DNA from: Gammaproteobacteria bacterium
GTDB taxonomy: Bacteria; Pseudomonadota; Gammaproteobacteria; Ga0077536
NCBI GenBank assembly: GCA_030429865.1
Contig: JAUIFX010000007.1
Location: 1-49,970 of the forward strand
Direction: 5' to 3'
DNA: 49,970 bases
The notes below the pieces were generated by a model that made no database searches, was not told the DNA's origin, and saw only the letters and a list, made by a program, of their open reading frames with translations. The position numbers and the translations under genes were made by a program. Every line of letters starts with the position of its first letter. Position 1 is the first letter of the stretch. Shown piece by piece: positions 41,380 through 45,271 of the stretch.

Positions 41380-42711
41380 ATGCTAAGAACACTGCTTCTC
41401 CTCTCCATTCTCGTCGCCGCCTCGGCCGCCGACGCAGACGATGATCCACTCGCCCGCGCGCAGGCCCTGATCGAGGCCGGCAAGCCGGCCGAGGCGTACG
41501 CCCTGCTCGAACCGCTCGAGGCGAGCTACGCCGGCGAGCCGGCGTTCGACTACCTCTACGGCGTGGCCGCGCTCGACTCGGGGCAGGCACTACGCGCCGT
41601 GTTCGCACTCGAGCGCGTGGTCGACACCAAGCCCGACCACGGCCCGGCGCGTGCCGAACTCGCGCGTGCCTACCTTGCGCTCGGCGAGACCGACGACGCC
41701 CGCGCCGAATTCGAGAAGGTGCAGGAGATGGACCTGCCGCCCGAGGCGCGCCAGACCATCGACCGCTACATGACCGGCATCGAACTCTTCCACGACCGCA
41801 CGCGCACGCGCTTTCGGCCCTGGGTACTGGTCGGACTCGGCTACGACACCAACGTCAACGGCGCGACCGATGCGAAGAGCGTTATCGTGCCGAACATCTC
41901 GGCCACCCAGCCGGCCCTGCTCGGCGGCACCGAGAACAGCCCGTTGTGGACGCTTGGCGCGGGTACCCGCTTCACCACCCCGCTGGACGTCGAGCGCGGT
42001 CTCAGCCTGTTCGGCCGCATCGGCCTCGATCATCGCCTGACCGTCGACGAGGCGGATTTCTCGACCTCGGCCGCGGCCGGCGCGCTGGGTATCAACCTGC
42101 GCCGCGACCGTCACCAGTTCCGTCTCGCCGCCGAGGCCGACATCGTCAAGATCGACGGCATCGGGCGCGTCAGCGGCGATCGTGAAACCGCCGGCATCTC
42201 GACCCAGTACCAGTACGCGCCGACCGATCGGGACCAGATGACCGCTTTCGCGCAGTTCGCGCTGGTGCGCTACCCCGACCAGCGCGTGCGCGACGTCAAC
42301 CGCTTCACCGGCGGCCTCGGCTGGGGCCACGCGTTCGCCGACGTCGCAGGCACGCCGATCCTTTACGGCTCGATCTTCGGCGGCTTCGACGACGAGCAGA
42401 GCGAAGCCAGCGGCGGCCATTTCGGGCGCGATTTCTACGGCGCGCGCGTCGGCGCCAGCTACCAGCCGCGCGAACGACACCAGGTCTACACGACGCTGAC
42501 CTGGCAGCAGAGCGACTACAGCGAGCGCGACCCGTTCTTCGCCAAGCGCCGCGATGACGAGTTCTTCGACATCGAGGCCGGCTATCGCTTTCAGTACGAT
42601 GAGCACTGGAGCCTGAGCCCGACGCTCCGCTATTCCGATAACAGCTCGAACATCGTCATCAACGAATACGATCGCTTCGAAGTCCTGCTCACGCTGCGCA
42701 ACGACTTCTAG
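41380..42711 (+). CDS. TPR-domain outer-membrane beta-barrel protein (Slam/surface lipoprotein assembly modifier-like)
   Basis: Signal peptide; N-terminal TPRs (ALIEAGKPAEAYALLEPLEASYAG...); C-terminal amphipathic strands ending LLTLRNDF. Confidence 0.75.
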   Translation: MLRTLLLLSILVAASAADADDDPLARAQALIEAGKPAEAYALLEPLEASYAGEPAFDYLYGVAALDSGQALRAVFALERVVDTKPDHGPARAELARAYLALGETDDARAEFEKVQEMDLPPEARQTIDRYMTGIELFHDRTRTRFRPWVLVGLGYDTNVNGATDAKSVIVPNISATQPALLGGTENSPLWTLGAGTRFTTPLDVERGLSLFGRIGLDHRLTVDEADFSTSAAAGALGINLRRDRHQFRLAAEADIVKIDGIGRVSGDRETAGISTQYQYAPTDRDQMTAFAQFALVRYPDQRVRDVNRFTGGLGWGHAFADVAGTPILYGSIFGGFDDEQSEASGGHFGRDFYGARVGASYQPRERHQVYTTLTWQQSDYSERDPFFAKRRDDEFFDIEAGYRFQYDEHWSLSPTLRYSDNSSNIVINEYDRFEVLLTLRNDF

Positions 42712-42730
42712 CGCTCGGAGGTTCGCCATC

Positions 42731-45271
42731 ATGTCAACCCCCCGCCCGCTCCCCCTCATCGTCCTCGCCATCCTGCTCGGCCTGGTCGTCCTGCCCGCCA
42801 GTGCCGCCAGCCAGGCCGGCAAGGTCGTCTACGCCTTCGGCAACGTGAGCGCCGTCGATGCCGACGGCGACAGCCGCGCGCTGTCCCGCGGCGCCACCTT
42901 CGACGCGGGCGACACCATCGTCACCAAGCGCGGCCGCGCGCAGCTGCGCTTCTCTGACGGCGGTTTCGCGGCGCTGCAGCCGAACACCGAGTACCGCATC
43001 GAGGACTACCACTTCGAAGGCGAGGCGGATGGCAACGAGCGCAGCTTCCTGAACCTGATTCGCGGCAGCGTGCGGCTCGTCACGGGGCTCATCGGCCGCG
43101 CCAACAAGCAGAACTTCCGCCTGCGCACCGCCGTCGCCACCATCGGCATTCGCGGCACCTCGGGCAAGATCACGCATTGCGAGGCGAATTGCGGCGAGCG
43201 CGGCCCGGGCACCAGCCTGGCCGGTTACGGCGGCGAATGGGATCTCAACTCGGGCTCGTTCAGCGGCCCGGTCAAACCGGGCCAGGCGAAGTTCTGTAAC
43301 GGCGCGAGCTGCTTCGACATCCCCGGCTTCGGGCAGCGCAGTGACGCTGGCGGCGATGACGGCGGCACCCTGGCCAGCAGCGACGACGAAGACGACGCCA
43401 CCGGCAGCGGCGGCGCAGCCGGCGACAGCGAGCCGGTCTTCCAGGCCGGCGTGCAGGTCGGCGAAGAAGGTCCGTGCGTGTTCGGTGAATGCGCCCAGGC
43501 CGATATCCTCGTCGCGACCGACCAGGCCGGCGCCGTGGCCTTCAACGATTCGCGCCGCGACGGCGATACCGGCGCCGGCGAAGACCTCGGCGTGGTTCTG
43601 CGTAACGGCGAGCCGGTCGCCGTGGTCGATATCGAAGACCGTCCCGACGGTGTGCCCGAAGTCTTCATCGCCACGACCGACATCGCCTCGGTACGCACCG
43701 CCGTGAGCGGCATCAACGAGCCCGGCCTGCGCGAGGGACTGACCGATTTGCTCGACGCCATCCCGGCCAGCGCGCTCGAGACCCTCGCGAGCAACCCGGC
43801 GAGCGTCGCGGCGGAGGACTTCGGCCTGACCATCGACGGCCTGCTGCTCAAGGGCCGCTGGCAGGACGGCTGGCTGCTCGAAGTCGAAGCCAACCCGCTC
43901 ACCGGCATCGACGACCTCGTGCTGACCGAGCTGGACGGCTTCCGCAGCACCCACTTCATCTTCGGTCCCGACCCCGGCTTCGTGCCGTTAGGCGGTGTGG
44001 CCACTTACAACTTCACCGGCGGTACCCGCTCGACCAGCGCCGACGGGCGCACCATCGGCCCCGGCGTCATCAGTGGCAACCTGCTGTTCGATTTCGCGGC
44101 ACGGACCGGCCTTCTGTCAATGAGCGTTCGGCACGCGGCGCGCACCTATAACATGTTCGGCGAACTGGAGTTCCAGAGCATGCGGACGTTCCGAGACGAC
44201 GACGCCCATGCAATCCAGGGTGGAACCGTCTACGACGTCGATATCGAAGGCTTCCTCGCCGGTCCCAATGGTCAGCAAGCCCCGCGTGCCGCCGGCCTCT
44301 CCTACGTCATCGATACACCGGTCAACATCATCGGCGTGGCCGGCTTCGGCCTCGACAAGTTCGTCGCCAATCCTTTCCAACCGGTTCCGAATGGCGCCTA
44401 CGTTGCCTTCGCGCACGGTTTCGAGGATACGTTCGACGAACTCAACAGCCAGGCCTTCGACTTCATCGTCGATGGCACCGACAACCTGGCGTTCCAGCAG
44501 AACGGCGTGGTCATCGACTTCCTCACCCTGGCGCACCCGATCTGCGACCCGGATTGCTTCTTCGAGGCCGACCAGGCTGCGGTCGCCCTCGACGCCACCG
44601 GGCCCGGCGGCGCCACCTCGCTGCCCACGCTCGGCGTGAGCTGGGCGCGTTTCTCGCCGGGCTACGACGTCGAACACACCGACGTCAGCAACCCGCTCGG
44701 CTCCGCACACGTGATCAAGGCCGACGTGCCGACTTCCGTCGCCGCGATTCCCGCACTCGGCAGTGGCCAGTACGGCGCCTACAACATGCTGCGCGGCGGC
44801 ACGCGCCCGACCGTGCTGTTCGAGACCAACGGCCAGCCGTCCGGCGAGCGCATCGGCCAGCTCACGTCCGCGCAGATCGGCATCAACTTCAGCACGGGCG
44901 ACGTCAACGCGAGCTTCGCCGGCAGCTTCCCCGACGGCGCCGGCACGGCGCTGTGGAACCTGAGCGGCGCGCCGGTCAGCACCTGCCCGGGCAGCGCCGG
45001 CTGCTTCGTACGCAGCCAGCCGATCCATTCGCTCGACCTCTCCGGCCAGGTGCTCAGCTCGCGTATCAGCAACCCGCAGGCATCGAACTTCGACTGCAGC
45101 GACGGCTGTTTCATCAGTGGCCATACGCACTTCGACCTGATCGGCGCGAACGCGCCGAACGGTGTCGTCGGCGCCTACCAGGCGCGCACCGACCAGGCCA
45201 TCGAGCCGGCATTCTCGCTGTCGGGGACCTACGTGCTGCAAGGCTCGGTCGGCCCCATCCCCCCGCTTTGA
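42731..45271 (+). CDS. FecR-domain exported protein, large
   Basis: Signal peptide; FecR fold (GDTIVTKRGRAQLRFSDGGFAALQPNTEYRIEDY; FRLRTAVATIGIRGT); 846 aa. Confidence 0.8.
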   Translation: MSTPRPLPLIVLAILLGLVVLPASAASQAGKVVYAFGNVSAVDADGDSRALSRGATFDAGDTIVTKRGRAQLRFSDGGFAALQPNTEYRIEDYHFEGEADGNERSFLNLIRGSVRLVTGLIGRANKQNFRLRTAVATIGIRGTSGKITHCEANCGERGPGTSLAGYGGEWDLNSGSFSGPVKPGQAKFCNGASCFDIPGFGQRSDAGGDDGGTLASSDDEDDATGSGGAAGDSEPVFQAGVQVGEEGPCVFGECAQADILVATDQAGAVAFNDSRRDGDTGAGEDLGVVLRNGEPVAVVDIEDRPDGVPEVFIATTDIASVRTAVSGINEPGLREGLTDLLDAIPASALETLASNPASVAAEDFGLTIDGLLLKGRWQDGWLLEVEANPLTGIDDLVLTELDGFRSTHFIFGPDPGFVPLGGVATYNFTGGTRSTSADGRTIGPGVISGNLLFDFAARTGLLSMSVRHAARTYNMFGELEFQSMRTFRDDDAHAIQGGTVYDVDIEGFLAGPNGQQAPRAAGLSYVIDTPVNIIGVAGFGLDKFVANPFQPVPNGAYVAFAHGFEDTFDELNSQAFDFIVDGTDNLAFQQNGVVIDFLTLAHPICDPDCFFEADQAAVALDATGPGGATSLPTLGVSWARFSPGYDVEHTDVSNPLGSAHVIKADVPTSVAAIPALGSGQYGAYNMLRGGTRPTVLFETNGQPSGERIGQLTSAQIGINFSTGDVNASFAGSFPDGAGTALWNLSGAPVSTCPGSAGCFVRSQPIHSLDLSGQVLSSRISNPQASNFDCSDGCFISGHTHFDLIGANAPNGVVGAYQARTDQAIEPAFSLSGTYVLQGSVGPIPPL

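Follow-up and report, generated by a model that had tools for sequence, protein, structure and literature searches.

A putative divergent DUF560-family channel paired with a FecR-headed protein bearing TbpB-like lobes: a predicted type 11 secretion module

The closest described systems are the Slam/type 11 secretion (T11SS) channels of the DUF560 family (Slam1/2, NilB, HrpB; PF04575), in which a TPR domain is followed by an outer-membrane barrel described as 14-stranded (PMC8406197). The cargo proteins co-encoded with these channels carry a C-terminal TbpB-like barrel. TbpB and LbpB are lipid-anchored, occur in a transferrin context and contain two lobes, each made up of a handle and an 8-stranded barrel; an SPII signal peptide with a lipobox cysteine is the mark of a T11SS-1A surface lipoprotein. 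Soluble T11SS-1B cargo proteins, such as hemophilin/HphA and HrpC, are non-lipidated, small and heme-binding, with a Sec signal peptide, a single C-terminal barrel and a co-encoded DUF560 channel. Nine of ten DUF560 clusters likely transport as-yet-unknown cargo (PMC8406197), and known barrels are seldom found paired with T11SS cluster 3 (PMC12282271).

Here, we describe a gene pair on a 49,970-bp gammaproteobacterial contig (the window, analyzed over its whole length) that we consider likely to be a two-gene T11SS (Slam/DUF560) export module, with a FecR-headed, non-lipidated protein as its predicted cargo. An initial annotation had described a 443-aa protein with a signal peptide, TPRs and a strand-rich C-terminus ending in DF, followed 19 bp later by an 846-aa protein with a signal peptide, a FecR domain, an acidic linker and a strand-rich C-terminus. 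Both descriptions were borne out by the open reading frames, by Pfam matches to TPR_19 and FecR (PF04773), and by AlphaFold2 models. The features of the pair are as follows:

41380..42711, + strand: gene 1, candidate channel ORF, 443 aa, C-terminus ...LRNDF
Gene 1 residues ~1-17, + strand: Sec-type signal peptide (...LLLSILVAASA followed by AD, read by eye)
Gene 1 residues 23-141, + strand: TPR helices (TPR_19 and AlphaFold2 model)
Gene 1 residues 144-442, + strand: barrel, 14 strands in the AlphaFold2 model, C-terminal Phe
42731..45271, + strand: gene 2, FecR-domain exported protein, predicted non-lipidated cargo, ORF of 846 aa
42731..42808, + strand: gene 2 Sec signal peptide, residues 1-26, SPI type without lipobox (...ILLGLVVLPASA followed by AS, read by eye)
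42815..43330, + strand: FecR domain (PF04773), residues ~29-200
43331..43498, + strand: acidic linker, residues ~201-256, Asp/Glu-rich, pLDDT <50 at 201-248 and 250-256
43829..44365, + strand: TbpB-like lobe 1, residues 367-545, handle-like strands 373-413 and eight barrel strands 423-545 (DSSP)
44399..45244, + strand: TbpB-like lobe 2, residues 557-838, handle-like strands 557-664 and barrel strands 681-838

A ribosome-binding-site-like GGAGG precedes the ATG of gene 2 by about 10 nt (sequence read directly), and a promoter and terminator scan gave no signal above chance. The flanking ORFs are unrelated; judged by their translations, the upstream one resembles an NAD-binding dehydrogenase and the downstream one, on the opposite strand, a NUDIX protein. 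As the initial annotation had stated, neither a sigma factor nor a TonB receptor lies nearby; no sigma-70 region 2 and no TonB-receptor plug was detected across the whole contig. Iron, heme and TonB genes are likewise absent from beside the pair, unlike at classical Slam loci, which counts against the explanation that we favor. Within the 4.6-Mb genome that contains the window, the sole PF04575-like match and the only two barrel matches all fall inside this gene pair.

Gene 1 matched TPR_19 clearly (E = 3.5e-13), but its direct assignment to SlipAM/DUF560 (PF04575) by Pfam failed: the match was weak (E = 0.087, residues 408-443), reaching 12.8 bits against a cut-off of 22. Family-level evidence was therefore used instead. 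When public bacterial genomes were searched using an alignment of relatives, 432 relatives emerged, the best 80 of which were kept, and 68 sequences entered a full-length alignment of the channel family. PF04575 was found at E <= 1e-3 in 58 of these 68, with the best match (E = 1.7e-23) extending across the barrel, and the top full-barrel match among the relatives, at locus L152, scored 84 bits. The predicted membership of gene 1 in the SlipAM/DUF560 family rests on these intermediate relatives, most of which match SlipAM over their full length; the window channel itself appears to belong to a divergent clade. An AlphaFold2 model built on the family alignment (pLDDT 89.7) showed a TPR domain and exactly 14 outer-membrane strands, the layout known from Slam/T11SS channels. 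The label "Slam-like" given in the initial annotation stands, while Slam proper does not apply, because no lipoprotein is involved; a divergent type 11 secretion (DUF560) channel with non-lipidated cargo is the more fitting name for the pair.

When the gene 1 model was compared with the PDB using Foldseek, the top matches included the TPR-barrel protein BcsC, PelB and the 14-stranded OmpG, and no Slam structure was among the matches listed. Together with weak NCBIfam matches to BcsC and EpsL, this would fit a polysaccharide porin of the BcsC/PgaA/PelB type, to which the FecR protein would be an accessory. However, 14 strands is the number reported for DUF560, versus 16 in PgaA (PMC8406197), and the relatives match SlipAM specifically. 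In addition, no polysaccharide synthase recurred among the neighbors of the pair loci, and the partner protein resembles T11SS cargo. We considered the porin reading very improbable and rejected it.

The resemblance of gene 2 to T11SS cargo lies in its C-terminal region. Pfam detected FecR alone in this protein, while the region after FecR aligned with the C-termini of partner proteins from other loci. A lobe profile of 49 sequences, drawn from partners of channel genes, was searched against all PDB sequences and retrieved TbpB (1e-5), LbpB (2.6e-5) and, more weakly, hemophilin (0.03); the remaining matches up to E = 10 were two weak, unrelated chains (E = 1 and 4.5). Among the members of the lobe family, Pfam TbpB_B_D was detected in 8/49 and HphA_C in 2/49. 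A family profile that excluded the window protein and its 92% relative found two copies in gene 2, at residues 367-540 (c-E 1.3e-28) and 636-750 (c-E 2.7e-10), and a profile-profile comparison of lobe 2 with the lobe 1 family gave 97.8%. In line with this, the AlphaFold2 model of gene 2 (pLDDT 83.6) consisted of the FecR domain, a disordered acidic linker and two lobes, each with handle-like strands and a barrel. With this model as a query, Foldseek ranked TbpB first (3e-10) in an alignment of about 635 columns, with HphA and HpuA lower. The TbpB-like fold anticipated by the initial annotation was thus recovered by profile, Foldseek and DSSP, in the form of two lobes rather than one. The motif FSTGDVNASFAGSF sits within barrel 2, and FDLIGANAPNGVVGAYQAR lies close to its end.

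Gene 2 lacks the lipid anchor of TbpB and LbpB and the transferrin context in which they occur, and carries an additional N-terminal FecR domain, which hemophilin/HphA and HrpC also lack. No lipobox cysteine is present (sequence read directly), which agrees with the suggestion in the initial annotation that the FecR protein may be a non-lipidated cargo of the upstream Slam-like channel, and sets it apart from T11SS-1A surface lipoproteins. A crude LxxC lipobox scan of the aligned cargo gave one positive, spurious-looking by eye. Among relatives, the number of TbpB-like barrels per cargo ranges from 1 to 4. At L092, L090, L109, L135 and L144, cargo of 1000-1300 aa contains one FecR domain followed by three or four tandem barrels.

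The FecR domain (PF04773, E = 2.3e-8, residues 61-146) is the most conserved part of an otherwise variable cargo. Its first half resembles the retention domain by which RTX adhesins of the LapA type are anchored to the surface, N-terminal in both proteins: the best PDB match of the FecR profile was the LapA/MpAFP retention module 5ix9 (E = 4e-5), Foldseek superposed the FecR part on it with an rmsd of 1.0 Å over 62 columns, and NCBIfam retention_LapA (NF033682) matched gene 2 at 1.3e-5, with 25.4 bits against a curated cut-off of 50. This likeness suggests non-lipid anchoring. The retention_LapA model matched 44/44 cargo N-termini, but FecR paralogues without a channel matched equally well or better, so that the similarity characterizes this FecR family as a whole rather than channel-paired cargo in particular, and we give it less weight. 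LapA itself is exported by type I secretion and released by LapG. As LapG (PF06035) had no match in any searched pair-bearing genome, LapG-dependent release of the cargo was rejected; nor was a LapG site noticed.

FecR domains are also familiar from signaling, and the second half of the domain weakly matched the putative anti-sigma factor structure 4m0n (E = 0.24). Gene 2 could accordingly be read as an anti-sigma factor or envelope sensor, with the barrel protein as its outer-membrane receptor. Such a protein would be expected to have a cytoplasmic or transmembrane anti-sigma part, and gene 2 has none: its N-terminus is an SPI signal peptide, followed by the FecR domain, and the C-terminal two thirds consist largely of TbpB-like lobes. 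The barrel protein, for its part, is plugless and has 14 strands, and the contig provides neither a sigma factor nor a TonB receptor to complete such a circuit. We rejected this reading as extremely unlikely, in support of the initial annotation, which had doubted a regulatory role for FecR here.

The two genes occur together across many genomes, in a pairing that computation shows to be near-obligate. The channel gene adjoins a FecR and/or barrel gene in 80/80 loci (the best 80 of the 432 relatives), and in 77 of these the FecR gene lies downstream, with a median gap of 12 bp; 75 were counted by script, to which L119 (over-extended start) and L097 (broken frame) were added. The remaining loci have a FecR-barrel gene (L124, L142) or a truncated barrel ORF (L137) immediately upstream or upstream of the channel gene, respectively. 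To avoid bias from retaining the best matches, we also sampled the class evenly. The channel was present in 29 of 143 genomes drawn in this way, about a fifth, and a FecR gene lay alongside it in 33 of the 35 loci examined (one divergent, one decayed), L196 and L198 being the loci without a FecR neighbor. Conserved adjacency, which the initial annotation had named as a check together with a barrel in the first protein and a TbpB-like fold in the second, was seen in both sets; its interpretation of the pair passed all three of these checks and is supported. All 17 barrel-bearing genomes of the draw also contained the channel (17/17; hypergeometric 1e-14), and 21/22 barrel matches lay within ~6 kb of a channel gene, in a search whose barrel profile was itself built from the partners of such channels. 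Several FecR partners, including those at L064, L085, L101, L114, L140, L143 and L175, have no recognizable barrel; the barrel may be dispensable, or it may have diverged beyond detection. Like the two loci without a FecR neighbor, this counts against the explanation that we favor.

A gene for a GT41 (PF13844, OGT/SPINDLY) glycosyltransferase was found downstream of the pair on the same strand in 21 loci (L101, L102, L113, L116, L126, L128, L133, L145, L150, L154 and about 11 more), in about ten of them within 130 bp of the cargo gene. The window pair has no such gene alongside. The arrangement is similar to the adhesin, translocator and glycosyltransferase of hmw1ABC. The HMW1 adhesin is glycosylated by HMW1C, another GT41 enzyme, so an adhesin role for the cargo is plausible.

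With these data, a route for export can be proposed. Sec would carry both proteins into the periplasm. The channel would then insert its 14-stranded barrel into the outer membrane, with the TPR domain facing the periplasm. The cargo would be recognized by its C-terminal TbpB-like barrel lobe or lobes and moved through the outer membrane, which would place the barrels on the exterior of the cell. The folds, the family relations and the near-obligate pairing are shown by computation; export by the channel is inferred, as is the barrel as a targeting element, which has been suggested for other T11SS cargo (PMC8406197, PMC12282271). The N-terminal FecR domain would remain in the periplasm and serve as a non-lipid anchor for the displayed lobes.

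In a variant of this model, which departs from it only in what becomes of the FecR end, the entire cargo including FecR would be released into the medium as hemophilin is, with FecR as just an effector domain. Release is indeed documented for non-lipidated T11SS cargo, HrpC for example (PMC8406197). Leptospira surface proteins contain FecR domains, and NCBIfam Lsa33 and LipL45 match 41/44 and 42/44 of the cargo N-termini, respectively. However, the conservation of FecR and its resemblance to a domain known for retention are easier to reconcile with a constant function on the cell side than with a variable effector. We regard release as a serious possibility, though not the probable outcome. 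More speculative, and on balance unlikely in full, is a third fate for T11SS cargo, neither lipid-anchored nor released. The cargo would be threaded C-terminus first until the FecR domain, with its LapA/RTX-adhesin-like fold, locks at the periplasmic side of the channel, leaving one to four lobes outside as an adhesin, GT41-glycosylated in some lineages. Such a stapled cargo would combine the logic of LapA with a Slam channel, its glycosylated-adhesin part being as in hmw1ABC.

The channel family is already known; neither the FecR-headed class of cargo nor its near-obligate association with the channel seems to have been described: in the open literature, covered by titles, abstracts and term counts and excluding most subscription papers and all preprints, FecR was not linked to T11SS, type XI secretion, surface lipoprotein assembly or TbpB. 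Many environmental beta- and gammaproteobacteria carry the channel-FecR pair. The FecR-adjoining channel clade would offer a concrete, testable answer to the cargo question of environmental DUF560 clusters, and a likely job for many "FecR domain-containing proteins", which can readily be taken for regulators by mistake. How the barrel directs export could be studied with the cargo proteins that contain as many as four tandem TbpB-like barrels.

The loci also varied in composition. A CHASE2-type gene lies near the pair at L111, L132, L090, L097 and L126, and the one tested, at L111, combines CHASE2 with adenylate/guanylate cyclase domains. At L064, L085, L140, L143 and L175, the channel is paired with a short FecR protein of 240-364 aa without a recognizable barrel. 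One channel gene is followed by two tandem FecR genes at L170, L177 and L185, suggesting cargo duplication, and at L200 (G073:C341) a FecR-barrel protein is encoded without a channel gene in the 6 kb covered and may represent an orphan cargo that is served in trans. Finally, some copies are degenerating or mis-sequenced: L058/L078 (G007) have an in-frame TAG within the channel gene, and L199 is a decayed channel-FecR pair.
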